From a virus: DNA of 21,032 bases. Of this stretch, positions 126 through 21,032 are shown in pieces. Where the stretch lies: positions 1 through 21,032 of the IMG/VR virus record IMGVR_UViG_3300027906_000184; one strand, 5' to 3'. The translations under genes were made by a program, and so were the position numbers. Positions within the stretch are counted from its first letter, which is position 1; each line of letters opens with the position of its first letter. The notes under the pieces are model-generated. The model saw only the letters and a program-made list of their open reading frames with translations. It ran no database searches and had not been told where the DNA came from.

Positions 126-129
126 CCTC
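126..129 (-). promoter_or_regulatory. Shine-Dalgarno of gp16, embedded in the gp15 stop
   Basis: The minus strand reads TGAGGTTAAATTATG: the TGA is the gp15 stop codon and GAGG lies seven bases before the gp16 ATG. A ribosome finishing gp15 therefore ends on the gp16 binding site, which favours coupled translation of the two genes. Confidence 0.7.
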
Positions 130-1126
130 AGAGTAAATTACCATCAAAACCAAAGTCATCTCCTACTTCAATCTTGGTATTATCAGCCTGATTAATAGTA
201 AAGACCTTGGATCCCAACACATGATTTTGAATTGGTGATTTATCCTGGGACCTTCTGACAAGGATCTTATTACCTGTCACAGTCTCAACATACATTTCCT
301 CTTGATCGATGTAGATGTAAGATCCTTCTGGAATTTTGGTTCCATCTTCTACATCAATGACGGTTTCCACCATATCAACATTCTCTGCGAGAAGTGTTGC
401 GACTACACCATCATAATCTTTGATAGCTCTTGGTGTGACCTGATACGTGACATCCCTTTCGTATTTGTTCGATTTGGATCCAGCAATATAACCAACAGTA
501 ACCTTCTTGACGATATCCTTGGTTACATCGGTAAGTGGTCCGAAGAGCATGGTTTTTGCTGTGAATGTAAACGTATAGATGAGTGCTCTTCTAGTATCGA
601 AGTTACCTTCATACTCATCCGTCATATCAATATTTTCAAGAACAACAGGAGTATTCACAACCTCCTCATAGTCCCCTAGAAACTTAATTGGAATTGTATA
701 TCCTGGTTGAAAATATGGTGCAATCTGTTCAGTAATCTGTAACATATCATCATTCAGTTTTGTATAAACCGAAAGGACAATAGTCATATTGTATGGAACA
801 GGTAAAAATGTTTTTCTCTCCTCTTCACCATTTGCATTGGTGATGACCATACTCTGGGTCTTGGTTGACTTCCTGGAAGGATCATACGCAAGTGCTGTAA
901 ATTCAAATGACATCCTTGGAAGGGTCATTTGAGTTGGATGATTTAGATCAGGGTTTTGTTGCAACCTTGCAAGAAACTTTTGTGTAGGTCCATAAGCAAG
1001 AGGAACTTTGATGACACTAAAGGTATCATCACTTTCATCCTTCTTTTTGATTTGGATTCCATTAAAAAGGGAACCGAAACCAATAATTACGGATCTAAAA
1101 ATTTCGTTGTAAAAATATTCAAACAT
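128..1126 (-). CDS. 15: gp15 tail sheath stabilizer / tail completion protein
   Basis: Homologue of T4 gp15, which forms the hexameric ring terminating the tail tube and sheath and joining the tail to the neck. The N-terminus MFEYFYNEIFRS matches the remembered T4 start MFGYFYNSSFRR, fixing the start at 1126. Other shared landmarks are FNGIQIKK near residue 21 and the block with DDMLQITEQIAPYFQP at 126-141, nearly identical to T4 DDMFQIVEQILPYFQP. At 332 residues it is longer than T4 gp15 (about 270). The excess is mostly at the C-terminus: after DYDG (237-240) a segment at about 253-310 carries IDQEEMYV, a basic LVRR turn and NHVLG, the 'module C' unit also present in both giant proteins here. 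No good Shine-Dalgarno precedes the start (AACAGTGTAAAATAATG). It lies 38 bases after gp14 and is followed closely by gp16, as in T4. Confidence 0.94.
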   Translation of the reverse strand: MFEYFYNEIFRSVIIGFGSLFNGIQIKKKDESDDTFSVIKVPLAYGPTQKFLARLQQNPDLNHPTQMTLPRMSFEFTALAYDPSRKSTKTQSMVITNANGEEERKTFLPVPYNMTIVLSVYTKLNDDMLQITEQIAPYFQPGYTIPIKFLGDYEEVVNTPVVLENIDMTDEYEGNFDTRRALIYTFTFTAKTMLFGPLTDVTKDIVKKVTVGYIAGSKSNKYERDVTYQVTPRAIKDYDGVVATLLAENVDMVETVIDVEDGTKIPEGSYIYIDQEEMYVETVTGNKILVRRSQDKSPIQNHVLGSKVFTINQADNTKIEVGDDFGFDGNLL

Positions 1127-1134
1127 TATTTTAC

Positions 1135-1158
1135 ACTGTTACACATCTATTTAACAGT
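1135..1158. repeat. Short inverted repeat between gp14 and gp15
   Basis: ACTGTTA at 1135-1141 and TAACAGT at 1152-1158 are perfect complements separated by ten bases, giving a possible 7-bp hairpin in the 38-base gp14-gp15 gap. The stem is AT-rich and no T-run follows, so it does not look like an intrinsic terminator. It may be an mRNA structure near the gp15 start, or chance. A degenerate late-promoter-like TTAAATA on the minus strand (1148-1154) lies within it. Confidence 0.3.
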
Positions 1159-1164
1159 TTCAAA

Positions 1165-2553
1165 TCAAGGCATCCCAAATGGGTTAGTCTGACTAAAGTC
1201 AATGATACTATCTGCAGCAATTTCGATATTATCATTATCTGCAAATGGTGTGACTAAATCATCTGTTTGAACACCACCAATTACATACTTTGCACCAGAG
1301 GTTGAACCAGTAAGAACTTCACCAACAACGAATGTTCCGTCAATGACCCCTACTTCCATTGTATCTGTAACAGTGTTCCATTCCTTGACCCTAGCTGTTG
1401 TACCACTTGTAGATCCTGTAACAACTTCATTGAATACAAACTCACCACCAACAGTAACACCAGCACTAATGGCTTTTGGTGGATCAATACTAACGATAGG
1501 TGCAGAGTTGATACCTACACCACCCTTAAGAATATAAATGGCTGTGACAATTCCAGAGGAACTAATAGTTGATATACCAACAGCAAGTTCACTTGTAGCT
1601 CCAATTGTGACCTTAGGTGCAGAAGTGTAACCCGCACCTCCATCGGTTACTGTAATAGATTTTACAGATCCATTGGTTGAAATACCTGTGGTTGCTGCAA
1701 ACCCTGTCCCACGACCACCATTTACCACTATCATTGGTGCTTCAGTATATCCACATCCAGTATTCGTCATTAGGATTGCAGGAATAACCCCACTAGTTCC
1801 TTTACATCCAGGACGACTGTAAGAAACAGATGCAATACCAGCCGCAGTTGTTCCACCAGATGGTGCAGAAGAGAATCCAACTGTAGGAGTAGATCTAAAA
1901 TTCTTACCCATGTTGGATATGTAAATATCACTTATCGAACCAGAACTACAGTGTTCTGCGGTTGCGGTAGCAGTTCTACCAGCACCAATCAGATTAAGTG
2001 TTTGAATATATCCAATCTGTGCAATCTCATCGTCAATTGTCTCGATTCCAGTATCGATGACTTCATCTTCATATCTGTAGAGTTCACACTTCAGTTCATA
2101 AACATAGTTCTTTTTAAGTTGGTAGAAGGGTTGTTCGTGTTCTACAAACTTGATCTCAAACAATCTATCTCCCAGAGGGAAGTAAATTAAATCCCCTTCC
2201 TTTGGTCTGGTGGCTAGTTGAATATTTGAGATCTGTTTTGTAAGTGGTGTAATATAGCTCTCAAATCTTTCTTTTGAGATGACAAGTGTCAAATCATCTC
2301 TATTCTCGATACCAAACTTTGAAAGGATAGTTCCCTGACCACCATATCCCTCATAAGTATCGACATACGCCTCTATAGGATATGCGTTCTTAAACTCAGA
2401 CTCAATTACTTCTCTAATGATAGTTTTTGTAGACGCATAAATTCTGGGGAGATAAAATACCTCCACTCCATACATCTTTAGTTGTTCGTTGACAAGACTC
2501 TGAATCAGGTTCTGTTCAGATGATGTGCCGTTAAGAAAAAATGGATTTAACAT
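1165..2553 (-). CDS. 14: gp14 neck protein with a long inserted repeat region
   Basis: Homologue of T4 gp14, which with gp13 forms the neck gating DNA passage between head and tail. Residues 1-190 are canonical: a V-x-x-x-Y-LPR-x-Y stretch at 30-39, YEGYGGQ at 67-73, and PKEGDLIYFP at 117-126 followed by LFEIKFVE and PFYQL, which align closely with remembered T4 PKEGDLIYFP...LFEINWVE...PFYQL. The C-terminal tail (about 437-462, with IIDFSQTNPFG) again resembles gp14 ends. Between them, about residues 190-435 (near 1249-1986), sits material with no T4 counterpart: four G-x-G-Y-x-x-AP-type repeats with prolines at 223, 273, 313 and 352, then two GE/NE-V-x-TGSTSG repeats at about 374-428. Length is therefore 462 against about 256 in T4. 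The start lies 6 bases after the gp13 stop, with only a weak GGTGAT ahead, so coupling to gp13 is likely. Confidence 0.95.
   Translation of the reverse strand: MLNPFFLNGTSSEQNLIQSLVNEQLKMYGVEVFYLPRIYASTKTIIREVIESEFKNAYPIEAYVDTYEGYGGQGTILSKFGIENRDDLTLVISKERFESYITPLTKQISNIQLATRPKEGDLIYFPLGDRLFEIKFVEHEQPFYQLKKNYVYELKCELYRYEDEVIDTGIETIDDEIAQIGYIQTLNLIGAGRTATATAEHCSSGSISDIYISNMGKNFRSTPTVGFSSAPSGGTTAAGIASVSYSRPGCKGTSGVIPAILMTNTGCGYTEAPMIVVNGGRGTGFAATTGISTNGSVKSITVTDGGAGYTSAPKVTIGATSELAVGISTISSSGIVTAIYILKGGVGINSAPIVSIDPPKAISAGVTVGGEFVFNEVVTGSTSGTTARVKEWNTVTDTMEVGVIDGTFVVGEVLTGSTSGAKYVIGGVQTDDLVTPFADNDNIEIAADSIIDFSQTNPFGMP
1249..1986 (-). repeat. Inserted glycine-rich repeat segment within gp14
   Basis: This part of gene 14 encodes four module A units (TPTVGF, APMIVV, APKVTI and APIVSI after a Gly-rich turn; spacing 50, 40 and 39 residues) and two module B units ending TGSTSG. 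The pattern of short hydrophobic strands separated by Gly/Ser/Thr turns suggests stacked beta structure. The same units occur in gp8 and both giant proteins of this window. Boundaries are approximate, set by where similarity to T4 gp14 stops and resumes. Confidence 0.8.
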
Positions 2554-2559
2554 ATATCA

Positions 2560-3426
2560 TCACCCGATAAGGTCAAGGGGTGGTAATTCATATGTACTCA
2601 ACATACTCTCCTTGATTCTGTCGATTTCTGCTTGGGCATCATCATAAAGTTGTCTTCCGTTAAACTCAATACCACCAGGAAGTTTCACACCCTGGAACTT
2701 AATCAAGTTCTGACCCCACTGTCTCTTGATGAGTGCTGTCAGATATGGCTTGAGGAAAGAATCATTATAAACTCTTGGATAATCATTAGGATCTGATGTT
2801 CTCCAACAGTCAATGATCAAGAACTGACCTGCCTTGAGTTGTCCCCAATCAACGTCGAGATACATCCTATCTTGTCTCTGATTAAATCTAATCTGTTTAT
2901 GTGTATTCAGAAGGAAGTTCATCGTCTCCAAATACGACATAGCCATTGAGTATGATAAAAGATCTGTGGATCCCCAATAATAGATATCATTAAGGAACAA
3001 CTGATATTTAAAACTAAACATGTTTGACATGCTCATAGACTGAGCATCATCATATTGATATACCTTATTGATACCAATTACATTAGGTGGTACCTGTAGA
3101 TAGTTACTATTTTCATAGTATGTAAAAGTAGTTTCAGTTCCTACAATCGTTGCGGTTGCGCTAGTAGATGCGATACCAGTTGTTCCACTATCATTTTGTG
3201 GTGCGCCAGCTGGTCTTGCTTTACCCCTATCAACATCTGCTTGAGTTACTTCATACTTAAGATATTGTTGTGACACACCGTCAAAGTGTCTCTCTTGAAA
3301 ATACTGAATTGCATCATCTACAAGATCTTGAACCTGCTCTTCAGCAACATTAATCTCCAAAACAGGAGCACCTAACTGTCTCAAACAATAGTCAATGAGT
3401 TCTTGTCTAGTACTAGGCTGAGCCAT
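2560..3426 (-). CDS. 13: gp13 neck protein
   Basis: Homologue of T4 gp13, the head-completion/neck protein that binds the portal side of the neck together with gp14. The N-terminus carries RQELIDYCLRQLGAPVLEIN (7-26), a helix then GAPV as in T4 gp13, followed by acidic VAEEQVQDLVDDAIQYFQERHFDG (T4 has ELYGEYHFDG). The C-terminal helical part has LKPYLTALIKRQWGQNL (225-241) and the hallmark KLPGGIEFNGRQLYDDA at 248-264, matching T4 MLPGGVTIDGQRLIEEA. At 288 residues it is close to T4 gp13 (about 309). A Gly/Ser/Thr/Ala-rich stretch at about 80-98 (GTTGIASTSATATIVG) looks like a small surface insertion. The start at 3426 is backed by AGGA at 3436-3439, nine bases upstream, and by a late-promoter-like element 25 bases upstream. 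It heads the gp13-14-15-16 cluster. Confidence 0.95.
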   Translation of the reverse strand: MAQPSTRQELIDYCLRQLGAPVLEINVAEEQVQDLVDDAIQYFQERHFDGVSQQYLKYEVTQADVDRGKARPAGAPQNDSGTTGIASTSATATIVGTETTFTYYENSNYLQVPPNVIGINKVYQYDDAQSMSMSNMFSFKYQLFLNDIYYWGSTDLLSYSMAMSYLETMNFLLNTHKQIRFNQRQDRMYLDVDWGQLKAGQFLIIDCWRTSDPNDYPRVYNDSFLKPYLTALIKRQWGQNLIKFQGVKLPGGIEFNGRQLYDDAQAEIDRIKESMLSTYELPPLDLIG

Positions 3427-3435
3427 TTATAGTGG

Positions 3436-3439
3436 TCCT
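3436..3439 (-). promoter_or_regulatory. Shine-Dalgarno of gp13
   Basis: AGGA on the minus strand with nine bases (CCACTATAA) before the ATG at 3426. It would fall inside the short leader of a transcript started from the AATAAATA element at 3451-3458. Confidence 0.65.
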
Positions 3440-3449
3440 ATCTATATGT

Positions 3450-3686
3450 CTATTTATTTAATAACTCAGTAATAGAATTAAGCATTGACTTAATTTCATT
3501 CACATCACTCTTTATACTTACTACTTCACCTTGAAGACAATCAATTTTTTGTTTATCTTCTTTTAGTTTTTGTCTGTTTCTGATGTATGTGTTATATTCG
3601 AGATTATTTTTATTAACGATTGCACCGGAATGGATGTCTCTAAAATAGCCATCCATTCCTTCGACTGGGAGATAATTATTCATCAT
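3450..3686 (-). CDS. Small coiled-coil protein at the wac position, function unknown
   Basis: A 78-residue protein of a type recalled as common beside structural genes of T4-like marine phages (opening N-NYLPVEG, then RD-x-HSGAIVNKN); I know no assigned function. Residues 1-40 are polar with NYLPVEGMDGYFRD and SGAIVNKN. Residues 41-78 form a textbook coiled coil: I48, L51, V55, I58, V62, I65, L69, I72 and L76 follow an unbroken 3-4 spacing over four heptads. It starts inside the end of the upstream giant gene: ATG at 3686 gives a 4-base ATGA overlap; a second ATG at 3683 gives a 1-base overlap and would yield a start more like relatives. Only a distant GAGGG lies upstream, so coupling is likely. 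In T4 the gene immediately before 13 is wac (fibritin, a trimeric coiled coil), so a much smaller neck- or tail-associated oligomer is conceivable, but this is inference from position and heptads only. Confidence 0.82.
   Translation of the reverse strand: MMNNYLPVEGMDGYFRDIHSGAIVNKNNLEYNTYIRNRQKLKEDKQKIDCLQGEVVSIKSDVNEIKSMLNSITELLNK
3451..3458 (-). promoter_or_regulatory. Late-promoter-like element (AATAAATA) before gp13
   Basis: The minus strand reads AATAAATAG, matching the NATAAATA form reported for late promoters of T4-like cyanophages (T4 itself uses TATAAATA, recognised by the gp55 late sigma factor). The last bases overlap the TAG stop of the 78-residue gene. A start of transcription would be expected around 3445, giving a leader of roughly 20 bases that contains the gp13 Shine-Dalgarno. 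It probably drives gp13-gp14-gp15-gp16. Confidence 0.65.
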
Positions 3687-6600
3687 GCGAATGACAGAGC
3701 CCTCAGACTTCTAATAAACGGAGCGTTAGCTTGGTTTGTTGATGTACCAATAATTTTAATCCTGAAGGATGTAAATGGACTGATGTCATCAACACTAAAC
3801 TTATACTCTCTATATTCATTGATAAGTGGTTCGGGGCTGTAAGAATCAACCTTAGGAACCTTCTTATCAGGTGTTCCATTATTGTTTCCAATATCAATGA
3901 TGGATCCGTTGATATCCTTGTTATTGAATCCAGGGAAGGGAACAAAGATACTCTCTTGAACCGGACCAGTCTGATTGAGTGCGTAGAACACTCTGATATC
4001 ACCAAAGTTGGAGACATACGCATCAAGAAGAACCTGAAGGGAAGTTGCAGGATTCTCAAGTTCTACATTCTTACTTACATAGATGAATCTATCGGGATCT
4101 TCCGATACTCCATTTACTTTGAAGTTCGATGCATAATCAGTGACAGGTTTATTGATTCTGTTACTGGTGAATACAACCGACGCATTGTCAAGATCAATAA
4201 CTGGACTGATACGAGGATTAGTTGACAATAATGTAAAGTTCATACCGAATGACTTCTTACCTGGGAAGGTATCAGCATTAAGTTGAAGAGCTTCATTCTG
4301 AGGTGATGCAACCATCATCATATCATCAAAGTAATTCTTATCAAAGAGAGTTACTTGTTTGTATCCTTTATCAAGATAAGATTCTTGATTACCGGATACA
4401 CTAGCCGCAGAAATTGTTCTTACTTGAGAAATAAGGTTAGTTCCGAGAGGAGTAATTGTTGTAATCTTAGGAGTGATCAAACTGAATGGGAGGTTGTAAG
4501 ATCCTTTAACGAAAGGACCACCAGCAAGTTTACTCTCACTAAAGTAAAGTGGTGGGAATCCTGCAGCGTTAGCTGGTGCTCTATTAACACCATTTGCATT
4601 CATCTGAACTTTAACATAGTAGTAGTCAAGTCCAATAGGAGCTTCTTCCAGTTCACTTGCATTGACGTTTGCAAGTTGATGTTCTGTGTTGATTCTTCTG
4701 AGAGATACACCGTCAAGTTCATACTTATATACTAGTTCACCAGAATTGTGCTGTGAGATAACAGTATTATCAATACCTCTAACGATACCAGTAAGAGTTC
4801 TACCATTAGTACCCGTGTAACTGATAATCTCATCACCGATCTTGACATAACCGGGATTAGTACCAGCTACACCAATATTCTCAAATGTATTGTAACCATT
4901 ACTGGAAGCATTTTTACTGAGGGTAATAAAGGTTGTTGAATTAAACGGATAATTTACTGCAAGAGTCAGAGGAGATGAATCACTTCTGACATCACTAAGT
5001 GTGACTCTGTTTACATTAGAGTAAAGACCATGGTTTCTTTGGAAGATCCTGAGATAAGATCCTTCGTGGTTAATTCTAATTGGTGCTATTGGAAGAACAG
5101 CTCCACCAACATCATTGAGTTCTGTTGTAAATCCAACAGCATTCTCATAGTATAATGGGTAAGATGCATTGGTGGTAAAGTTACCTTGTACATTGTCAAG
5201 AACAAGGGTATTATTACCAAGAGTACTATCTACAGAAAGTTGAATACCACGTCCAAGATTGAGGGTTCCAGGACCGACAGGTGCCAGAACGTCTCCAACG
5301 ACATAACCAGAACCCCCTGTATTGACTGTGGCTGCTGTAACTTCACCATTAGTAATAGTAATATCGGCAGTTGCATTTACTCCCTTACCAGTGATAGCTG
5401 TTAGACCAACTCCAGTATAAGTAAATGCACCAGAAGATGGTGTGTAACCAATACCTGCATTTGTAATCGTAAGATTAGAGGTGACAGAACCAGCAAAAGC
5501 TACAAGTGTACCTTGTGCACCAATAGTAAGTTGTTTGACTGTTCTTCCCTTAAGAAGACCAGCATCATTTACCAACTTGTTCAGTCCAAGTCTGATCTGT
5601 CTGGACTCAATAGTAATACCATTAGGGTCGATTTGAGAAATATCACTAGGAAGTTCAGGGTTAAACATGGATACGTTACCCTGTGTCTTAAAGTTCGCAA
5701 CATACATCGTGAACTTAAGGTCTTCATACTGTGAAGGAGTCCATACAGAAGCATTCTGTGACTTGAATAGTGATCCAAGTAGAGGTTGTTCTGTAACAAG
5801 AATCTGACCACTCTCTTGATTGGTAGAAGTGACATCTGCTTCACCAAGTCTACTGATCCATACACGGTATTCTGTAGAATGTGACAGAAGAACCATTGCA
5901 TACTCTGTCTGTGGATTCAGATATACAGGTGCCTTAAGTGTGATTGTTGTAGCAACAGTACCATCCTCACTCACATTTACATCATTAGGATCGATAGATA
6001 CTGCTGAGAATGGAAGTACATTGGATGTTGGGGTTCCAAGTTTTGTATCTCTGATCTCAAACAGAACAGGAATATTTTCATCCTTGGATTGGAAGAAGAT
6101 ATCAACCTTGGTAACAAATACACCCGACAAATCATCTACAAAGAATGTTTGTGCAAGGGGGTCGATCTGCGGCGGGGGCGGGGGCGGAATAAATCTCTGA
6201 CTTATATCAACATCCGTAGTGGTATTGGTATCTGTAGACTGAACATTGATAGCATTAGATCTGGCTGTATCACCGATGATTCGTCTCTGTGAACGCTCCT
6301 CTCTTCTGACAGTTGCATTTCTAATTGCCAGTGTCGTTTCCTGTGTAACGTCAACACTACCTTCAGAATAGAAAATAGATTCACCAGCAGTAGATACGAT
6401 ACCTTCAATAGTGCTGTTGATCTTACTACTTGTAAGTCTGAAGTTTGATCTACCAGTCTCAAATGATGGGTTGGAAGGATTGTTACCATTAGGAACAAAG
6501 TAGGAAGCGATCATCGTTCCAACTCTATCAGCTACCATCCTGACATTCGTAACTCTTGCTTGAGCACCACTGGTTCTACCAGTAAGAATCATCGACTTAG

Positions 6601-9600
6601 AAATAAATCCACTGAACTGTGGGAAGTCCTGAGATTGGAGGCTGAAAGTGTCAATATTCAGTACAGTAGCAGCAGATGAGTAAATGGATGGGAATACTAC
6701 ATCTCTATTGTAGGGGTCACTATCGTAGAAGTCAGTAGGTGAATTGTATGGACCATACTTGTGGTTATTTGTAGCAACTCTGAAGTTGATTGATGGGATA
6801 GTAGTACCAGTAGTTACCTGGGACCCACCATCATCCATTCTTCCATTGACAGTTTCACCAACAACAAATGTACCATTAATCATCTCAATTTCGATGAGTT
6901 TTGGTGTCATGTAGTTATTGACATCTACATCATCGAAGAATGAATAGACTCTGGTAAACGGCTTAAATCTTCTACCAATTACACTAATATTACGAGATCT
7001 CATGAAGTTGACGATCTCTCTTCTCACAACTCTATCACCAAGAGATTCGGTATCAATTCTTTCGTTGACAAAGAACTGTCTTCCAGATCTAGTCTGAGAA
7101 AGATTTGTAGAGGTAGTCGCTGTAATTGCGTTGTTGGTAGTTACTGTTCTGGTCGTATTTCTAGTTGTGACCGTGGTTGAGAGTCTCCCACCTAAAATAT
7201 TTGAACTAGCATTTGATCTATTGGTATTAGTGGAACTAACAGCACTACTAGAAACTCTATTGGAGAGTGAAGTATCAACATCAACACCAACCGTCTGCCA
7301 GGAATTCCAAGTTACAGGTGATACACCTCTTCTACTTCCATCAGCCGCAGTTCTCACATCAGCACCAAGGGCTTGAGCAATGCCTTGGAAGGAACCTTCC
7401 ATCATTACCTCATTTACTTCAAGTCTATTAACATCAATCCACACATCAACTTCTGGAATGAGTTCAATTTCACCTTGCCAAAACTGAACAAGGAATGGAG
7501 TGACATTTTCAACTCTTGTAGCAAAAGGTTGTTCTAACCAATTTTCATCAGTATAATCAAGTGTAATGACTCTATCACTCTTCTTGACATTGACACCTAC
7601 AACTTCTGCAAAGTCAGCATCCTGATTTGCATTTGATGTAGTTCCGATACCAGCGATGGCAGTTGTTCCAAGTTGGAGATTGAGAGCAGTGGTATAGTGG
7701 GATGGTCTTAGAACTCCATTATCAGTATCAATAGAGTTTCTAATACCGATAGAAGTATCTTGTGGCTCAAGAGATGTGAAGTTATCAACAAAAATACCCG
7801 ACTTAAATCTGTTCTGACCGTTAGCATCCTCAACAAAGAGATTGAGAGTGCTTGATTCCAACTGACTCAACGAAGTATAATACTCAAGATTTTTGATTCT
7901 CTGTTCAAGTTTAGAGATATCGCTCATCTGATATCTCTTATGTTCAATAAACTTAATCTGAGCATCACCTACATCATACAAGTATGCTGGTAAGAATACA
8001 TTAGCAATGTTCATTACATTGCTGAGACTATCAGGAAGTTTGGGGAAGTCATCGGGAGCACCTGCCAGGTAGCCCAAAGCACCTTCTTTGTCAATGTAAA
8101 TTCTATCAGCTCTTGGGAGATAGTAGTTGTAATCTACAGTCAGTGACTCATCAGATGCAATAATGTGCTTAGAGGACTGTTTATTAGCATTTGCTGTGCC
8201 ATCTACAAAGTTTCTTCCGTCAAATTCAAATGGAGATCTTGCACCTTCAGCTAAAACATAATCTGCCAGTCTAGGTCTAACATCAACGATATCAGAACAT
8301 CTAACACCATCAACACCCGAAATTTCTGTACCATAGTTATAACCAACATAAGAATTGATCGTGGTGATATCCCCTTCATCACCTGCATCATAGTAAGATG
8401 ATGCAAAATATACACGAATTTTTTTATTTGGAACTTGCGCCTCGGCATTTCTGATGATTCTTGAATAATCATAGAAAGTTCCTCTTTGACCATCAAAGAA
8501 TTGGAAATCTTCAGTGATATTTTTGGATCCAAGACTTACATTAGATGTAACACCATTAACAGTAGAAGATTCAAACTTAACAACTTCCGCATTAGCAAAT
8601 ACTGTGTCATTCAAGTAGGTAAAGAAGATGGAAGTATCATCATCCTTTTGGAGGTAGATTGCCTTAGCTCCACTCGTTTGACCAACAATAATCTCTCCAA
8701 CAATAAGATCATTTGTCGTTGCAGTGACACCATCCAATTGGGAAAGTGTCATACCAGGACATGTAGGATCATTCTCGTTTTCTGATTCAAAGATACCGTG
8801 AATCTTATAAACATCAACAGTATTCAAAGAAATCTCTTCATCTTGAACTCTAGTACCATATGGCCAATTACCAGTAGTCAGACCATCTCCAAGAGAGGTT
8901 GAGCCAATACCAGATGCAGTGGTATTAGACTTAGTGATAATCAAATCTTGAGCTACATTCCTAATCTTTGTCTTCGACTTTACATCAGTTTTTCTGATGG
9001 TTGTAATCAATTTAGTATTTGTATCGTTTGCACCAAGTCCGTTGATCTTCAGTGACTTAGAACCATTAGTAAATACAAACCTATCTTCAGTCAATACCTC
9101 AGTAGAACCATCAGATCTAATAAGAATATATCTTTCCTCATCAAAAGGAAGGAATACTTCTTTATCTTCAGTATTGATAACAGGAGTAGAATTACTTGTA
9201 ATTGATGTAGTATATTGTCTTCTAATAACAATTTCAGAATCAACAAGATTTACTGATTCTACATTAGCTTTAGGGAATGCACTATAGAGTGCTCTGTTGT
9301 TCGCTTGGTTTCCAGAACCTGCGGTACTTCCAGTTCCCTTAGTAGAAAGTAGCTCAAAGTTCTGAACTTCTGTAACTGCAGCGGGAATAGTACCATCACA
9401 TACACCATTTACAGATGTAATTGCTTCAACAGTGATATTTGTTTTTGCAATACCAATAACTTTATTCAAAGTGGCAATATCAAAACCGGGTTTTGAGTAT
9501 CTAACAATATTACCGGTAGTAACGATACCAATAAAGGAGAAACCAGGATCTGCAGGAATAGAGATCAACGAGGAACCACCACCACCTGCAGAAACATTTG

Positions 9601-11323: not shown

Positions 11324-11329
11324 ATCTCT

Positions 11330-12889: not shown

Positions 12890-12960
12890 GTTTAGAGGAC
12901 TTTTTTCTTATTTAGACGGTAACTTAGACTGTAAACAAGTTAGGATGAGCTACAATTGTC

Positions 12961-12990
12961 CCAATTCTATATTTTATTTATTTCAATTGG
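12961..12990. repeat. Inverted repeat bracketing the late-promoter-like element
   Basis: CCAATT at 12961-12966 and AATTGG at 12985-12990 are perfect 6-bp complements around an 18-base AT-rich spacer that holds the AATAAATA element. One arm lies in the last codons of the upstream giant gene. Too weak and AT-rich for an obvious terminator; it may be a binding-site-like dyad or chance. Confidence 0.3.
12975..12982 (-). promoter_or_regulatory. Late-promoter-like element (AATAAATA) upstream of gp8
   Basis: The minus strand reads AATAAATAAAATATAG immediately after the TGA stop (12983-12985) of the upstream giant gene. It matches the NATAAATA late-promoter form of T4-like cyanophages. It sits in the largest intergenic gap of the window (12890-12982, 93 bases) and would give gp8 a leader of about 80 bases. 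The rest of this gap shows no ORF or RNA gene. Confidence 0.6.
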
Positions 12991-15900
12991 TGTAGCCATT
13001 AAACTTCAGTGGTCTCAATCTCTGTACAAGAGCTGAGGTTGATAGTCCAGAGTAGGGATTTGGTGTAAATTCAAGAGCAGTAGTAGAAGATCTGTTCTTA
13101 AATTCGATCTTACCCCAAGTATACTCACCCCAGAAGTAATCATTTTTAAATGTAGAAGATGTACCAATACCAACAGACGCAATTTCAACTCTTCTGATAG
13201 ATGTAGTTCCGATTCCAACAGATGTCAGATCCTTTGTTACATTGTATGCCTTGGAGACTTCATACACACCATCCATAGTTGTGGTGGATATAGTGTTTGA
13301 ATTATTGATAACAAAAATATCACCAATAATCAATTGACTCATAGTGATTGCAGCTCCAGGACCCATAACAGATTCCTTTCTAAGATCTGAGGATTCTGGG
13401 ATGTAAAGTTCTAGAGTAGCAAGACCACCAGCAGATTGTGCATAACCAACAATCTGACCAGAATCACCCTTATAGGTAAGAACACCGACAGTTTCACTTC
13501 TAATTGTTGGAGTTTCAATCAATACTTGAGGAGCCTGAGTGTACCCAGTTCCAGGATTAGTAATTGTAATTGAAGTAACACCACTTCCAGTTACGTTTGC
13601 AGTAGCTGTTGCTCTTGTACCACTAGTATCATCGGGAAGTGCGATAGATACCGTTGGAGTGAAGGTAGAATAACCAGAACCAACATTTGTGATTGTAATT
13701 GAGGTAACGGTTGATCCAATACCTACAGATGCAATACCAAGAGCTGTTGTGAACTCTCTTTGATCGATTAATGTAATACGATCTTGATAGTCAGTCAGAT
13801 TAGTCTCATTTCTACCACTGAATAGTGGTCTTGAGGTGTCAGTATATGCATAAGTACTTGTGAGACCAACATAACTTGTAAGATATGCTGCTGGGAAGAT
13901 AGATGGCTCCTGATCAACTCTATCTTTGGTGATAAACTGACCGTTGATGATGATATCATTAGTCTGCTTACACCATGTAACTGGTCTTACCAAAGTTTCA
14001 TTTTTTGTAATACCAGGTCCATCATAAGGGAATGTCCTAACTGTATCCAAGGTAGTGATACCTGTTACGGTTCTACTATCTTGGAATAAACCAAATCCTT
14101 GACCTACTTCAGGATTATTTTTCAGTTGTACTGAGTCACCTACTTTAATTGTCTCAAGAATATCGACCAATACAACATCAACAGAGGGTGTTCCCTTGTA
14201 GAATATAATCTTGGACTTATCACCCTTCTTAGGTGCTTCAGTGAACTCAATGACTGCACCACCATTAAACTTATAAGACTGATTTGGTACCTGAAGAATA
14301 TCATTAATTGTGACAATTAAACACTGAGCAATGTCAATATTTGATCCAGCGGCAACTTCAATAGAGTATTGCTTACCACTAATAGTAAGATCAAATGCCT
14401 TTTTAAATCCATCAAACTGTTCACCCAAATCGTCAAAGACATCAAGTTCTCCAACCGTAAATCCATTGAAAGAGTCACGGAACACATCCTCAATAGTGAG
14501 TTGGAATGGGTCATAATTAGTACTGGTCTGAACACCAGTTGTTCCACCAATAGAAGGTCTAACAACCTCACCTTCTTTGTAACCAAAACCAGCATTGACA
14601 ATATCAAAAGATACGACACTCGAACCTTGTCCTACGGTCACATCAACTCGTGCTCCAGTTCCTGTTCCAACAACACCATCAGCATAAACGAGAGGAATTG
14701 ATTGGTAGGGAAGTGGTGCATCAATAATGATAAGGGGTGGGTGTAAATCATCAAGATGAGCACCAATATAACTTGTAGTGATAGCTACAACACTTCCATT
14801 TTGAACTGTGGCTGTTCCAATATTAACAACAGTTGTAATACCAGTTGCAGAAATTGCATATCCAACATTAACAGTCTGAATACCGACCCTATAACCAGAA
14901 CCAGGATTATTGATAACCGTTGAGAGGATTGTTCCTGCAGAAGATACATTGACACTTGCACCAGCGGATACAAGTGGTTGATATCCAAAGCCTTGTGTAG
15001 ATGCTACAGATACAATAATACCACCTCTGGGGATAGTAGCCTTATTAGGATCTTCACCAGATGAAACACTATCACCAAGATATGTAATACTTGTTACACC
15101 AGCAGTTTCTGTAATATTAAAATCACCAGTGTTAATCTGACCACCCTGTGGTTCTTGAAGAATATTAGAATTTAGAACAATTGCATTGTTCGTAGAGAAC
15201 CCTGTAATGTTAGCACCATTCTGTGTCAAACCAAATACTTTTTTCTGACCATTAAATCCGGCCTGAATATTATCAAAGGTGAAGTTTGTGGAATAAGTAT
15301 CTACAGATTCATCAGAAATTCCACTCCTCATAAAAGTCCTTCCTTGGAAAGTGGAGAATGTTGTAATTCCTGAGAAATCTCTTTCATCTGGACTACCAGT
15401 GGTAGTACCAATGGGAATAGCACCGAATGGAGCTTGTATAAAATTGATGGTATTATCGACAATATTGTAGTTACCACCCATAAGTTCTACGGTAGTACCA
15501 TTTGCATGAGTACCAATACCAGTTCCCATTTGAGCTCTCAATACTCTTACTCTGTTTGTAGCTCCTACTCCAACGTCTTGAATGAGCATCATCTCATTGT
15601 TGACCTTAATGAGATCATTGGATGTCAGTGATGAGATACCACTAACAATGAAATCTACATCAAATATAACATCTTGAGCAAGAGTGGTGGATATATTAAC
15701 TTCAGTCACAGGTGCCTGAATCATATTATCAATGGCAACCAGAGCTCTTGCATTTTGGTTGGTTGATGTAATTTGATGGAACGTTCCAACACCAACAGAA
15801 GTCATATCTAATGTTGTCGGAGGAACTGCTAGAGCATCAAATGCACTTGCTGCAAATGCAACATTTACATCACTCAACTTGACTGCGTATACTGTGGTAG

Positions 15901-18900
15901 GTAATTTGTCAGTTGAGACACCAGCAATTGTTGTGGTAGCAATTCCAACAGCATTGGCCGTAGATGTCAAAGAATTTTCGTAATTATAAATCAGCTTTTC
16001 ACCAGTTACAAAGAAGTGATCTGGAACTGAGATAGAATTATTTGAAAGATTAACAACAGATCCACTGTTACCAAGGAAAGATCTTTGGAAGATTGGTTTT
16101 GTATTGTGTCTAAGGGTAAATGCTCTCTTCTTATCATTTTCAGTTCCTGTGTATCCACCAAATTTAGACCACAAAATATTATTATTCAGTGTACTAATTG
16201 ATGCGATACCAGTAATATTATCATAATTTTTAAGACTAATACCAAACGCCCTTACTTGAACGTCAATACTCGCATTTGGAGTATAGACAAGATTAGTAGT
16301 ATTACTAGTTTTGGTAACACCAACTGTCCCTAGCCCAACATTAGTTTTAATATCACCATACTTGACAATTCCAATATTGTCTGCATCAAGTACATTACAT
16401 TCAAACATCTCATATTCATTATTTGTAGTATCATGAACAGTTACTACAAAGTATTCTGTTGCGAATGGATTGTCATATGTTGCAATCAAATTAGCAGTGG
16501 GTGATCCTGAAGATGAGATAGACTTATAATAGGATGATAGGTTGGAAGTAATCATACTGACGGTTCCAACACCAGATGTACCAGCATTTGTCAGGATTGC
16601 AGAAACATTTGCAGTGACTGCTGTTCCTACTGTAGGAACAATACTGAAGACCAGATTTGAACCACTAATTTCTGCCTTATATGTACCAAATGCATCTTGA
16701 CCGGTCATTCCAGAATTATTTGTAATGTCACCATACTGCAACATCTCCACATTTGTTCCGTCATGTAGAATACTAAATTCAGACACGAAGTAATTGTTTT
16801 GAGTGTCTTCCAGTTGAACCAAGAGTTTTGCTGATCTCTCAGTTGTAGGAATTGTAAACAACGTGGTTGTCGTAGCAACAGCTACAGAAACAGAAGATGA
16901 TGCAATCGATACCAAATTACCAATTGCTTGAGATCCAATACCGGTTATATCGTCAAGACCACTGAATTGGAAAGTGGATACATCGTAGTTATTATATTCA
17001 AAGAGATTTGGTGTAAATGTGAGACCCCACTCACTAGTTCCAATACTTGTGTGACCAAAGAAACCGAGCGGAACGATAGTGTCAAGTGTGGAATACTGAC
17101 TTACATATCCATTATTACGATCCTGAAGAACACAAACTATAGCAGACTGTTTTCTGTTTCTAAGTTCCTTATCCTGTACCAGAGTAAAGATCTTATTGTA
17201 TGTGAATGAATCATCGTAAGTTGAAGTCACTGAGAAGTTAGTGGATCTGGGATTACTGTTAAATGAGGAGCTAAAATCGTCAATTTTAAGAACCCTGTTC
17301 CCTTTAGACTCAAAGTAGTCAAGAAGAATTTTGTTTTCAAATACTACTTGATCCGAAACAACTTTATTTCCACCAATATCAATAGTTCTTTCAGAAGCAA
17401 AATCGTAATCTGGGAAACAGCTGAGCTTTTCTTCACCAATAAGATCAACAACCGTTGCAATTTCAGAACCAACAGCTGTTGCAATACCAACAGCAGAATT
17501 ATCAATCAAAAGATCAGCAAATTTCCTGAATCCTGCAGTATGATTAAGTGAACTTACTGGATCATCCCATGTGTTAAAATCTACTCTCGATTTTAATGAA
17601 TATGAGAAGTTTTGGTAATACTCATTATTAGGAAGCACCTGAAGATTATCATTCAAGAATCCTGAGTTATTTTGCCATCCACCATTAAAGGTGGCACCAA
17701 CACCAAGTTTAATTGTTGAGTTAAAATCAATAAAGGAATTAATACGAGCCTGAGTACCTGTTGTCTCAGATCTTATGATTGAGCCAACTTCAAAATCATC
17801 ATCAGAAGTAATAAACAAGAATCCACTAACACTATCATATCTCTCAACTATTCCAATACCACTTGGATTTGCAACTATTTCACCCGCAACAAAGTCCTTA
17901 GTTGAAATTTCAGGATCAAAAGTTGGGAAGTATGTTTTAGGAGTAACTGAACCTGCAACAAGATTTGTAGTTGTTCCTGGATATTCACCAGCTGCAAGAT
18001 AGTTTGTAAGGTTGTATTCGATGAATGACCCAGAACCACCTAGGTTACTATCCAAATTAGTTACCTCAAATAACTCATATCCATAGTCTTCTGAGTTGTA
18101 ACCCTTACCCTGTGTTCCAAAACCAACAGCAATATTTTCTACAAGGACAGATTCACCAACCTTAAATGGCCAATCTTGTGCATCACTGAAAATATTTGAG
18201 AAGAAAAGACGAACAACTTTACTTGTAGAGTTATAAGTAATCGAGCTAATACTAAATCCATTAGTATTATTGATTGGAATAATATGAGGGGTGACATTAT
18301 TGAGTGAGTTAGTGTTTCTTCTGATATTCACACTATTATCATTTAACTCATAATCAAGAAGCAAATCAGTAATCTGCTTGTCAGTAAATCCATCAATGAC
18401 AACAAGATCAGGAGACTGACTATAATTTACACCACCAGAAGTAATACCAATCGATTCAAAACTACCCAGTGGATCAAGTTCTAGTACAAGAGGTAGATTT
18501 CCTACAGCATTAAGTGTATTATCAGATGGATAACCAAAACCAATATTATTAATCTTAGTAGAAATAATACTACCAATTGAAGTACTATTTGGTTTTAATA
18601 GAGCACCAGTTCCTTTTGCACTACTAACAGATGTAAATCCAGGAAGTGTCTTATAACCAATACCATTATTATCAGAGGAAACTCTACTGATAGGGCCTAT
18701 AGCTGTCAATGATGATGTGCTATATGTAATTCTAGAATTTGTTGAGCCATAAGATACGATTGTATCGTAATCAAAAGGTATATTGTAATCAAATGTGTCT
18801 GATGTTACACCAACAACATTGAAAATACCATCAAATTTATTAGAAACCAAATTAAGAGTATTGTTCTCAGTAACTTCAGTATCTTCAATAATTTCTTTCT

Positions 18901-21032
18901 TTATATCTGGAAGAACATCCAAATTATCTGGTTCTAATCCATAGAAGAGAACTGATGGAATATTATCACTTACGGTAAGAGTCAGTGAAGCATCATTATC
19001 GACACCAATAGCACCATTTTTCTTGACTTCAAATGTAGAGTCAGTTTCTGTGGTCCAAAACTCATTTATTTTTTGTTGATCCACATAGAGATGCATGTCA
19101 AAGGCGGATAATTGATTACCGCTATTAGTAAATGACAAAGAAGAATCTGACAAGTCAAATTTGATGATTTGATTCTTCTGAATCTCAACTTCTGGATTGA
19201 TACGAGCCAATGTTGCTGTGTTTGCACTTCCTACATTGACAAATGTAGGGTTTTCACTAGAAAGTTCACTCTTATTCCTAACCAGTTTAATAACATCATT
19301 CTTCAGATTATATACAAAGTACATATCGGATGATGCCATGTTATCAGATGGATTATCTGACGTGTAGATAACTTTATCACCCGTAAAGTACTTATTGGTA
19401 GGAACAGCAAATGTGTTTGCATCTGTATTGATTCCTGTAGCATCAATTACATCAGGATCAAATACAATTCTTCTATTATACTCATCATACTTGACTTTAA
19501 TAGTGGTAGTAGTGGTTGGATTTACATCAATCGTAATTCTATCACCACGAAGAATTCCATGAGTCTGTGCTGTAGATACGGTCACAATATTCTGTGATAC
19601 TCTACCTTTTAACACACTTGGAATATCAGTATTGAAGCTATGATAACTTCCTACACCGGTTACACTGGTGAAATATAACAATCCACCAGCATTAGTATCA
19701 ATACCAACAAAGTTACCTGTTGAATTAACACCAACTCTCTGTGTTGCGATACCAATCACATTATCTGACAGCGGTACTGCAAATACGTTTCTGGTAGCAG
19801 TGAGATCATATTTTGGTGTATCTTGTACTCCACTCCAGACCTCAATAGAAGTCCCATCATTGGGGTAATACTTCATTGGAGTATTGAGTTCCAACTTATG
19901 GTTTGGAATCAAGATCTGTTGTTGACCCAGATTTAATTGGGTTACTCCAATTCCAGGATTGGAGAATGTGACTGTAGTAATACCCGAGAACATTACCACT
20001 TGATCTGAACCAAGACCTACAGACTCATTTGGTTTGAAGTAGAACTGTTTATTTACCTTAAATGATCTATTGGTGGTGATACCTGTGGATGTAAATCTAA
20101 TCTTCCTTGGATCATCTCTTACAACAACACCAGCAGCGTGTGCAACACCTAGAGTTCCATCAACTCCCCTCAGAACTCTAATTCTTCCAGAATCATTATC
20201 AATATTAAGAACCTTCAGTTTTTCACTCTCAATTCTCAAAATATCATTAGGTCTGATGATTTGTTCATCCAAACTACCAGAAACATAGATGTATGTCTGA
20301 ATACCTGTGACTGATTGTGTTTGGATACCTACAGAAACATACCATCTCTCACTTGATACTCCAACAGTATATGCTCCATCAAAGCCCTTATAGTATTGTG
20401 AGAGATTATCGATGAAAACAGTATCTCTTGGAAGGAAATTGTGGGGTGCTGACGTAAATCCAATAAAGTTATTGGGATTATTACCACTACCAAATTCTAC
20501 ATTTTCAATGAAAGTAGTTGCAAGTGATACATTATTAACACTCTTACCTTTGATTTGAGAAACCTTATATCTTACGTTTCTACCAGATGTTCCTGTAGAA
20601 TTAAATACAACTTTATCATTTACCGAGTAGTCGGTTCCTGGATCAACAATATCCAAAGAATCAACAGAACCAGAAGTTGTTGCAACTACATCAATAGATT
20701 GATTTCTTACTAGATCTGAATTATAAACATAATCATAACCAGCATTTCCACCATCATTGGTGTAGTAGAACTTGGTATTTCTAAACCAAGAATTATTTGC
20801 TATATCATATTCCTTTTGATTAGATGCAGATTTGAAGTTAAATGGATTTGGAATAGATTGATATTCATTACCAATCACATATGGGAATGTTGGTCTTCTA
20901 AATTTGTTGAAAGGACCACTTGCATCAATATTATCGGAGATAGTACAGAAATATGCATATATTCCATTAGGGAAATCTGGTGTTACACAGAATCTACCAT
21001 TTGATTCATCTAGATCACCATCAGCTGTAAAG
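12983..21032 (-). CDS. Giant virion structural protein at the gene 7 position, 5' end outside window
   Basis: At least 2,682 residues; the frame stays open to the right edge. A GTG at 20878 is internal: 51 more in-frame codons, with GRFCVTPDFPNGIYAYF and FRRPTFPYVIGNEYQSIPNP, read smoothly across it. This stretch resembles the end of YHYH-type domains of cyanophage tail proteins (YAYF here), an inference. The rest is a chain of beta-rich segments with few cysteines. Numbering from the first visible codon: module C at about 253-308 and 1798-1853; module B at about 1043-1103; a duplicated domain at about 1391-1486 and 1521-1606; module A units scattered near 783-880 and clustered at about 2000-2165 and 2444-2511. 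It directly precedes gp8, where T4 has gene 7 (a 1,032-residue wedge protein), but I see no clear gp7 similarity. A baseplate-wedge or fibre role is inferred from position and composition. The stop at 12983 abuts a late-promoter-like element. Confidence 0.88.
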   Translation of the reverse strand, partial: FTADGDLDESNGRFCVTPDFPNGIYAYFCTISDNIDASGPFNKFRRPTFPYVIGNEYQSIPNPFNFKSASNQKEYDIANNSWFRNTKFYYTNDGGNAGYDYVYNSDLVRNQSIDVVATTSGSVDSLDIVDPGTDYSVNDKVVFNSTGTSGRNVRYKVSQIKGKSVNNVSLATTFIENVEFGSGNNPNNFIGFTSAPHNFLPRDTVFIDNLSQYYKGFDGAYTVGVSSERWYVSVGIQTQSVTGIQTYIYVSGSLDEQIIRPNDILRIESEKLKVLNIDNDSGRIRVLRGVDGTLGVAHAAGVVVRDDPRKIRFTSTGITTNRSFKVNKQFYFKPNESVGLGSDQVVMFSGITTVTFSNPGIGVTQLNLGQQQILIPNHKLELNTPMKYYPNDGTSIEVWSGVQDTPKYDLTATRNVFAVPLSDNVIGIATQRVGVNSTGNFVGIDTNAGGLLYFTSVTGVGSYHSFNTDIPSVLKGRVSQNIVTVSTAQTHGILRGDRITIDVNPTTTTTIKVKYDEYNRRIVFDPDVIDATGINTDANTFAVPTNKYFTGDKVIYTSDNPSDNMASSDMYFVYNLKNDVIKLVRNKSELSSENPTFVNVGSANTATLARINPEVEIQKNQIIKFDLSDSSLSFTNSGNQLSAFDMHLYVDQQKINEFWTTETDSTFEVKKNGAIGVDNDASLTLTVSDNIPSVLFYGLEPDNLDVLPDIKKEIIEDTEVTENNTLNLVSNKFDGIFNVVGVTSDTFDYNIPFDYDTIVSYGSTNSRITYSTSSLTAIGPISRVSSDNNGIGYKTLPGFTSVSSAKGTGALLKPNSTSIGSIISTKINNIGFGYPSDNTLNAVGNLPLVLELDPLGSFESIGITSGGVNYSQSPDLVVIDGFTDKQITDLLLDYELNDNSVNIRRNTNSLNNVTPHIIPINNTNGFSISSITYNSTSKVVRLFFSNIFSDAQDWPFKVGESVLVENIAVGFGTQGKGYNSEDYGYELFEVTNLDSNLGGSGSFIEYNLTNYLAAGEYPGTTTNLVAGSVTPKTYFPTFDPEISTKDFVAGEIVANPSGIGIVERYDSVSGFLFITSDDDFEVGSIIRSETTGTQARINSFIDFNSTIKLGVGATFNGGWQNNSGFLNDNLQVLPNNEYYQNFSYSLKSRVDFNTWDDPVSSLNHTAGFRKFADLLIDNSAVGIATAVGSEIATVVDLIGEEKLSCFPDYDFASERTIDIGGNKVVSDQVVFENKILLDYFESKGNRVLKIDDFSSSFNSNPRSTNFSVTSTYDDSFTYNKIFTLVQDKELRNRKQSAIVCVLQDRNNGYVSQYSTLDTIVPLGFFGHTSIGTSEWGLTFTPNLFEYNNYDVSTFQFSGLDDITGIGSQAIGNLVSIASSSVSVAVATTTTLFTIPTTERSAKLLVQLEDTQNNYFVSEFSILHDGTNVEMLQYGDITNNSGMTGQDAFGTYKAEISGSNLVFSIVPTVGTAVTANVSAILTNAGTSGVGTVSMITSNLSSYYKSISSSGSPTANLIATYDNPFATEYFVVTVHDTTNNEYEMFECNVLDADNIGIVKYGDIKTNVGLGTVGVTKTSNTTNLVYTPNASIDVQVRAFGISLKNYDNITGIASISTLNNNILWSKFGGYTGTENDKKRAFTLRHNTKPIFQRSFLGNSGSVVNLSNNSISVPDHFFVTGEKLIYNYENSLTSTANAVGIATTTIAGVSTDKLPTTVYAVKLSDVNVAFAASAFDALAVPPTTLDMTSVGVGTFHQITSTNQNARALVAIDNMIQAPVTEVNISTTLAQDVIFDVDFIVSGISSLTSNDLIKVNNEMMLIQDVGVGATNRVRVLRAQMGTGIGTHANGTTVELMGGNYNIVDNTINFIQAPFGAIPIGTTTGSPDERDFSGITTFSTFQGRTFMRSGISDESVDTYSTNFTFDNIQAGFNGQKKVFGLTQNGANITGFSTNNAIVLNSNILQEPQGGQINTGDFNITETAGVTSITYLGDSVSSGEDPNKATIPRGGIIVSVASTQGFGYQPLVSAGASVNVSSAGTILSTVINNPGSGYRVGIQTVNVGYAISATGITTVVNIGTATVQNGSVVAITTSYIGAHLDDLHPPLIIIDAPLPYQSIPLVYADGVVGTGTGARVDVTVGQGSSVVSFDIVNAGFGYKEGEVVRPSIGGTTGVQTSTNYDPFQLTIEDVFRDSFNGFTVGELDVFDDLGEQFDGFKKAFDLTISGKQYSIEVAAGSNIDIAQCLIVTINDILQVPNQSYKFNGGAVIEFTEAPKKGDKSKIIFYKGTPSVDVVLVDILETIKVGDSVQLKNNPEVGQGFGLFQDSRTVTGITTLDTVRTFPYDGPGITKNETLVRPVTWCKQTNDIIINGQFITKDRVDQEPSIFPAAYLTSYVGLTSTYAYTDTSRPLFSGRNETNLTDYQDRITLIDQREFTTALGIASVGIGSTVTSITITNVGSGYSTFTPTVSIALPDDTSGTRATATANVTGSGVTSITITNPGTGYTQAPQVLIETPTIRSETVGVLTYKGDSGQIVGYAQSAGGLATLELYIPESSDLRKESVMGPGAAITMSQLIIGDIFVINNSNTISTTTMDGVYEVSKAYNVTKDLTSVGIGTTSIRRVEIASVGIGTSSTFKNDYFWGEYTWGKIEFKNRSSTTALEFTPNPYSGLSTSALVQRLRPLKFNGYTN
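16215..16860 (-). repeat. Tandemly duplicated beta domain inside the right-hand giant protein
   Basis: Two successive segments share a layout. Copy 1 (about 16575-16860) has VQLEDTQNNYFVSEFSILHD, MLQYGDITNNSGMTG and SGSNLVFSIVPTVG. Copy 2 (about 16215-16470) has VTVHDTTNNEYEMFECNVLD, IVKYGDIKTNVGLGT and NTTNLVYTPNASIDVQVRA. Shared signatures are D-T-x-NN-x-(Y/F/E), (Q/K)YGDI-x-(T/N)N and a NLV-x-x-x-x-P strand. Divergence shows the duplication is old. Function unknown; probably a structural beta-sandwich. Confidence 0.75.

Follow-up and report, generated by a model that had tools for sequence, protein, structure and literature searches.

The tail region of T4-like cyanophages carries a toolkit of three recurring protein modules, here called A, B and C, which is real and is chiefly a new instance of the known modularity of phage proteins. 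We consider it rather probable that marine T4-like cyanophages (Kyanoviridae and kin) added these three sequence-unrelated β-modules to conserved T4-type cores along the whole tail, in neck, baseplate, hub, sheath and fibre proteins. Each gene would have been seeded long ago and would then have evolved mainly by descent, with repeated gain or loss and with occasional new insertions from other genes. In the tail, B and C would have a structural, contact-making role, and arrays of A would be stiff spacer arms that enlarge or extend the proteins and are able to carry further domains.

The window and its relatives

The window, by which we mean the whole 21,032-base viral fragment that was analysed, belongs to a T4-like phage near the Synechococcus phages RB11-B, RN05-S and S-B43, with DNA identity to these phages of about 78% across one third of its length. 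Read along the minus strand, it encodes the right giant, gp8, the DUF4815/VrlC giant (hereafter VrlC), a 78-residue open reading frame, gp13, gp14 and gp15 (Table 1). The gene order of RB11-B is the same except for one extra gene that separates the right giant from gp8. The 78-residue frame (window 3450-3686, minus strand) lies between gp13 and VrlC, and an RB11-B gene of similar size is annotated as a virion structural protein. VrlC has a solved relative, ORF65 (9euf).

The right giant is open at its 5' end, where it is cut by the contig end; its cut N-terminal end (window 20933-21025, minus strand) holds the end of a YHYH domain (Pfam, 33.2 bits). Its relatives of 4307 and 4337 aa, the latter from RB11-B, are annotated as baseplate wedge subunit or initiator. 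The giant at this gp7 position adjoins gp8 in S-CAM7 and ACG-2014f, as it does in the window, and one additional gene lies between the two in RN05-S and P-TIM68, as in RB11-B. Since T4 gp7 itself is missing from such phages according to the available part of one report (PMC7029224), we make no claim that the right giant is homologous to T4 gp7.

Table 1. Genes and modules. Positions are those of the window unless a locus is named. The profiles behind the window-wide coordinates include window copies; leave-one-gene-out (LOGO) profiles omit the tested gene.
Feature	Position	Strand	Basis or remark
gp15	128-1126	-	Pfam T4-gp15_tss 265.7 bits, cut-off 25
C, gp15	188-379	-	between T4-like core and DDFGF tail
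gp14 neck protein (head closure Hc2)	1165-2553	-	Pfam T4_neck-protein 5.9e-32, 111.6 bits, cut-off 25
gp14 T4-like core, residues 1-161	2071-2553	-	extent of listed T4-type gp14 alignments; remainder is module region
A copy 1, gp14	1834-2007	-	profiles including LOGO
A copy 2, gp14	1684-1860	-	profiles including LOGO
A copy 3, gp14	1594-1731	-	profiles including LOGO
A copy 4, gp14	1447-1602	-	profiles; LOGO 1.1e-3
B copy 1, gp14	1339-1455	-	profiles including LOGO
B copy 2, gp14	1225-1359	-	profiles; fold match of residues 181..430
gp13	2560-3426	-	module-free, internal control
VrlC (DUF4815/VrlC giant, 2546 aa)	3683-11323	-	Pfam DUF4815 (PF16075) 3e-54, 184.7 bits, cut-off 30; phrog_358
C, VrlC	4715-4903	-	profiles, predicted structure, fold match
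A copy 1, VrlC	5381-5542	-	profiles and predicted structure
A copy 2, VrlC	5294-5392	-	profiles and predicted structure
B, VrlC	6497-6634	-	profiles
B-like stretch, VrlC	6843-6895	-	DNA 72% identical to 1307-1359 (gp14 B; repeat family D9); overlapping residues 1481-1494 2.1e-3
B, VrlC	8597-8734	-	profiles
Weak B-like stretch, VrlC	10988-11038	-	0.0027; LOGO 4.7e-3; unproven
gp8	11330-12889	-	Pfam Phage-Gp8 42.4 bits, cut-off 25
A, gp8	12029-12196	-	profiles including LOGO
Second, weaker A, gp8	12215-12271	-	9.2e-5
Right giant, C-terminal 2682 aa of gp7-position baseplate wedge protein	12983-21031	-	phrog_2885, E 0, two stretches
A, right giant	13481-13630	-	profiles
A, right giant	13625-13771	-	profiles
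A, right giant	14519-14671	-	profiles
A, right giant	14828-15001	-	profiles; LOGO 7.5e-4
C, right giant	15470-15670	-	profiles
Weak B, right giant	17711-17797	-	2e-4
Two weak A, right giant	18389-18619	-	0.0014 and 1e-4; only residues 856-880 recur with LOGO (7.3e-4)
C, right giant	20105-20302	-	profiles
Weak A, right giant	20579-20689	-	1.8e-3
Long gp14s	L386:2998-6324, L388:1566-4892, L397:514-3576		1021-1109 aa; A array broken by long non-A stretch holding block site

Profiles detect the modules across genes

Leave-one-gene-out profiles were trained on seven other cyanophages and the remaining window genes, and were compared with 200 shuffles per protein. In ten positive gene-module tests, which are not wholly independent because the training copies were gathered by iterated profiles seeded in gp14 and gp15, none of the 200 shuffles of the protein concerned equalled its best real match. 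Module A gave four matches in gp14 (3.6e-10, 2.3e-8, 1.3e-6 and 1.1e-3), two in VrlC (1.7e-7 and 4.7e-5), two in gp8 (1e-10 and 9e-5), and three strong (1.7e-14, 3e-8 and 1.7e-7) and four weak ones (7e-4 to 8e-3) in the right giant. B was detected twice in gp14 (1.5e-10 and 9.6e-8), twice in VrlC (2.4e-7 and 7.9e-6) with two weak matches besides (2e-3 and 5e-3), and once, weakly, in the right giant (2e-4). C was found in gp15 (4.6e-9), in VrlC (1.1e-8) and twice in the right giant (1e-8 and 5e-6). The corresponding profiles for A and B were negative in gp15, as were those for B and C in gp8. Because some match beyond 0.01 occurred in up to 13 of 200 shuffles, matches weaker than about 1e-3 count as unproven. 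A match of the C profile was also obtained at gp14 residues 169-194 (7.8e-4, 0/200 shuffles as good); this is probably a look-alike, a false match that marks the limit of the test. All ten tests were unchanged after we dropped the copies of one S-RIM14 protein that had been labelled gp7 and is annotated only as hypothetical.

These results confirm, with corrections, the recurring modules proposed in a sequence-only reading of the window: A, B and C cross-detect between proteins, and the coordinates assigned to them there hold under profile placement. The motifs written in that reading were too strict, GxGYxxAP occurring three times and GExVxGxTSG never, and instead of five or more B copies VrlC has two clear ones plus weak ones. 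No single module is common to all five proteins: four of them have A, three have C, and two have B, with one further protein giving a weak B match. Nor does the decoration extend over the whole cluster, inside which the iterated profiles gave no A, B or C match in gp13.

The iterated profiles, once converged, yielded 66 A, 25 B and 32 C matches and 0 decoys at the same cut-offs (reversed plus five shuffled copies of every protein), counts that still include the S-RIM14 hypothetical protein under the label 'gp7'. An A profile made from the four gp14 copies only matched the right giant at 9.5e-8 and gp8 of relatives at 0.004; in VrlC it did no better than the best decoys (0.09), and wider training was needed there. 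The gp14-only B profile matched VrlC of S-SZBM1 (4e-6) and of the window (0.002), and a C profile from gp15 only matched the sheath protein gp18 of S-SZBM1 at 0.016. Against PHROG, the gp14 A array matched 15 families; one has no known function, and the other 14 are annotated as connector, baseplate wedge, tail fibre, hub-lysozyme or virion structural protein. For the window proteins, neither Pfam nor NCBIfam listed a model that corresponds to any of the three modules. The possibility that A, B and C form one family was considered and rejected, since profile-profile probabilities were under 1 for every pair, and they are treated as unrelated. A and B have a similar three-strand order in the gp14 model.

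The modules reach along the cyanophage tail

A census of seven whole cyanophage records, which omitted RN05-S as near-identical to RB11-B, counted 112 places with A, 30 with C and 29 with B. In these records the genes that hold modules are either annotated as virion genes or large and of unknown function, gp13 never being among them, and the annotation of some goes no further than hypothetical or structural protein. Modules are carried by the gp5 hub proteins of S-CAM9, P-TIM68, S-CAM7 and RB11-B and by long tail fibres of cyanophages, A being among those in the fibres. C is present in the gp18 sheath proteins of S-SZBM1 (924 aa, L006:30246-33020, two copies) and S-CAM9 (885 aa, L007:33646-36303, one copy), both of which are longer than T4-type gp18 (659 aa). 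No A, B or C was found in the whole record of one T4-type genome, phage RB14. Out of 50,697 phage records searched with a gp14-type A array, the 261 that matched all bear Synechococcus, Cyanophage, Prochlorococcus or Marine in their names; with one array as query, the search is uninformative on single diverged A copies. Two giant genes for virion structural proteins were observed, at NC_070839.1 149248-169107 (open frame of 6619 codons) and at KX349299.1 61316-79912 (6200 codons). These genes are A-rich, adjoin gp6-type wedge genes and appear to replace the right giant.

Empty sites in gp14 and gp15

The listed T4-type gp14s (60 of 2322 records) align to window gp14 residues 1-161 or fewer, and the listed T4-type gp15s (60 of 2117 records) to window gp15 residues 1-251 or fewer. 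That both alignments stop before the modules, together with the cross-detection and the lack of matches in RB14, bears out the earlier proposal that the modules are add-ons on proteins of separate origin. In gp15, C lies between the core and the conserved DDFGF tail and is present or absent at this one single place in the examples compared; gp15 of S-CAM7, ACG-2014f, S-RIM14 and S-SZBM1 has the DDFGF tail without C. The S-SZBM1-type gp14 has two B repeats and zero A, and the S-RIM14 type has two A repeats inside the loop of the first B (B1) hairpin. The gp14s of L172-L176 are empty relatives, their sequence being continuous across the B1 hairpin site. In window-type gp14 the A array stands one strand earlier, ahead of B1. 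For the two A sites within one gp14 domain, separate insertions or a loss followed by regain give the best explanation. In one gp14 of the S-RIM14 type (L166, 486 aa), an extra insert of about 90-100 residues was seen between the two A copies.

The IMG/VR sets used for comparison each comprise the best 80 of several hundred matches. From 400 loci plus reference genomes, 343 rows had gp14 and gp15 both complete, and representatives were drawn from 342 of these (RN05-S not among them). On the best tree of the gp14 and gp15 cores, with inserts excluded, gp15 C underwent 11 state changes and the gp14 state 5, counts that may be inflated because 50 of the 142 inner branches are weak and in which parsimony cannot separate gain from loss. 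Co-occurrence was scored over the 213 loci of the first three IMG/VR sets in which gp14 and gp15 are both complete. Within L097-L176, C was absent from gp15 in 68 of 68 S-RIM14-type loci with the hairpin-loop A array in gp14, and present in gp15 in 5 of 5 empty-site loci. Mutual exclusion of this array and gp15 C was considered as a rule and set aside, the tree of 145 representatives containing four independent pairs only. S-CAM7 and ACG-2014f have A in gp14 yet a gp15 without C. The class 'no B1 after the array' is not clean, as it also took in three window-type loci (L042, L049 and L085), and an initial classifier of insertion place, which left 40 of 80 window-like gp14s unclassified, was superseded.

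An 88-residue A-type block in long gp14s

The gp14s of L386 and L388 (1109 aa) contain an 88-residue block that is missing from gp14 of L397 (1021 aa), the genes being otherwise about 96% identical over 3,063 bases. The block is also present in gp14 of L395. In the outgroup pair L414/L417 (80-81% identical) it is missing at the same place, which makes gain a simpler reading than loss. The block is picked up by the A profile. Outside these gp14s, the sequences nearest to it among the loci compared share 42-47% protein identity and belong mostly to other large tail-region genes; those inspected are the large gene on the upstream side of gp13 in phages of the S-RIM14 type and a structural protein of S-SZBM1, and the S-RIM14 copy of that large gene is annotated as hypothetical and starts with a tropism-determinant N-terminal domain. 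Weaker matches were found in one tail fibre, one VrlC and another gp14. Judging by these sequence comparisons, the block may derive from another tail-region gene, though no donor was found among the loci compared. The long non-A stretch of these gp14s that holds the block site has no Pfam family above cut-off. A lectin-like domain was suspected by eye in the very long gp14s and was dropped when Pfam gave no confirmation.

Predicted folds and structural relatives

VrlC residues 1895-2260 were predicted with a pLDDT of 90. The gp14 model has a pLDDT of 77.6 overall and a pTM of 0.50, with the A array at 84-96 by blocks. The C domain of VrlC matched the folds of VP1 capsid protein 9in6_M (Z 7.9), JBD30 baseplate 8rk3_b (7.4), Mystique tail tube (6.3) and the Chi (8vjh_B) and lambda tail tips (5.7 each), all under 8; ATP synthase and translation factor barrels come next in the list, after these phage virion chains. 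In sequence searches, the C profile matched the Chi minor tail protein 8vjh_A at 6.2e-11 (two places) and the JBD30 hub 8rk3_o at 2.9e-5 (497-553). C is thus predicted to fold as a small barrel like those of siphophage tail tips and hubs. The JBD30 hub has a small six-stranded barrel that the available part of its description presents as stabilising the baseplate (PMC11445458), and we infer that this barrel is the stretch matched by the C profile. Chain M of 9in6 is the VP1 major capsid protein; its sequence match to C was not significant (E 2.1), and from the fold comparison a C-type barrel may also be present on this capsid protein.

Residues 181..430 of gp14 matched barrels of the aIF2-gamma type over 67-74 residues with Z 5.7-6.0, values that common arrangements also reach and that are too low for a fold match to be relied on by itself. 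The fold-match lists of gp14 are occupied by its core. The strand before the A array and both B repeats may form a translation-factor-like barrel, with which this match would agree. A is predicted to be a three-strand repeat in tandem arrays, set in or beside such barrels. The expectation that the modules fold alike could be followed in the two of the five proteins that were modelled, gp14 and VrlC, and for A by strand order, which is predicted to be the same in both. B had no relative of note among PDB sequences, and the JBD30 hub and the Chi minor tail protein are not among the matches listed for the A and B profiles.

Spread and role of the modules

The sequence-only reading had attributed the shared modules to shuffling between neighbouring genes, and ongoing shuffling or gene conversion among the neighbours of one genome might keep them alike. 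Adjacent genes do have modules in common, gp14 shows one fairly recent in-frame gain, and the best non-gp14 matches of the inserted block include a gene that is separated from gp14 by one other gene in phages of the S-RIM14 type. The C copies of the gp7-position giants (nine, at several places) and of gp18 (three) also form no single groups in the C tree. However, the VrlC copies in this tree are one group with a support of 100; the gp15 copies lie on one side of an unsupported branch. Cross-gene similarity, calculated with the S-RIM14 protein labelled 'gp7' included and RN05-S omitted, was no higher for copies that share a genome than for copies from different genomes (A 0.366 versus 0.363, B 0.442 versus 0.446, C 0.295 versus 0.297), and label permutations reached the observed similarity in 214, 330 and 267 of 500 cases, respectively. 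Direct DNA repeats in the window are weak (at best 85% over 26 nt, 79% over 38 and 72% over 53). Modules are absent from gp13 (0 of 359 complete proteins) yet present in genes elsewhere in the genome (gp5, fibres). Exchange between neighbours is quite unlikely in view of these results, and what is visible is discrete insertion with empty-site relatives, for the gp14 arrays at two places, for gp15 C and for the 88-residue block. Convergence, by which glycine-rich β-hairpins or turns of large β-proteins would have become alike without common descent, could draw on the shortness of the repeats and on their few strongly conserved columns (A has one invariant glycine and one nearly invariant tyrosine), and the probable C look-alike in gp14 also beat 200 shuffles. 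Yet shuffles never reached the best real matches of the ten positive tests, the T4-type genome has no matches, and the strand order of A is predicted to be the same in gp14 and VrlC, so that we hold convergence to be very improbable.

Regarding function, the solved proteins to which C is related by sequence are one hub protein and one minor tail protein, and a structural, contact-making role would fit by relationship. The modules might alternatively be glycan-binding decorations of the virion surface, comparable to the Ig-like domains of other phages, that provide a weak and general contact with the host. The best PDB sequence relative of A, a tailspike depolymerase (0.0034), and the occurrence of A in tail fibres point in this direction, and arrays and C are gained and lost among relatives as surface parts would be. 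In contrast, Pfam matched no carbohydrate-binding family within the module regions, the hub and minor tail proteins are the clearest relatives of C, and the barrel of the JBD30 hub is given a baseplate-stabilising part in the available text (PMC11445458). We find glycan decoration unlikely and retain contact domains for B and C and spacer arms for A as the probable roles, in combination with old seeding of each gene, descent and occasional insertion. A further idea, to which we attach little expectation, is that A might be an undescribed mobile module at the protein level that enters β-domain loops as in-frame blocks, in nested fashion, so that gp14 would form neck arms of up to about 900 residues (in the 1109-aa protein) that carry further domains and perhaps replace fibritin whiskers.

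Relation to known systems

Ig-like domains are reportedly scattered over phage virion proteins, as Fraser and colleagues are said to have described in 2006. Like the modules described here, they are small β-domains on unrelated virion proteins and are patchy among relatives; unlike them, the present set comprises three modules, one in tandem arrays, and is concentrated in cyanophage tails. No Ig-like or BIG family was among the Pfam matches up to E 1 for six window proteins. By fold, C and the BB unit resemble small barrels that we take to be the RIFT group. The available part of a survey (PMC10684548) attributes RIFT-related barrels to many tail and neck proteins of phages, whereas here, in T4-like phages, C is placed as an addition to gp15, VrlC, gp18 and the gp7-position giant. 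The JBD30 hub gp53 (8rk3) and the Chi minor tail protein (8vjh) are alike in being matched by the C profile, but they are siphophage tail-tip proteins with no A or B match listed.

For T4-like fibritin, the portion of the study at hand places module exchange mostly in the distant past, with vertical divergence thereafter (PMC3797505). Old exchange followed by descent is similar to what we propose, but the gene is a different one and the present case also includes a newer insertion. Domain mosaicism, in which unrelated proteins share domains, has been surveyed for phages, with neck passage proteins among the recent cases; as far as the available part extends, the survey used ECOD domains, whereas A, B and C are without a Pfam model (PMC10684548). 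The words marine and cyano are absent from its main text. In the literature on cyanophage tail proteins, VrlC/DUF4815 and domain shuffling, covered as titles and abstract openings of the matches listed, A, B and C are undescribed. Within this literature, the particular set, its reach along the tail, the tandem A arrays with empty sites and the nested gp14 insertion seem to be new.

Cyanophage neck and baseplate proteins can far exceed their T4 counterparts in size, and much of the extra sequence is without a family. Naming A, B and C provides an annotation vocabulary and accounts for part of this size, as in gp14, which ranges from 256 to 1109 aa. The natural empty-site pairs, down to one 88-residue block, could be used to ask what a virion gains from a module.
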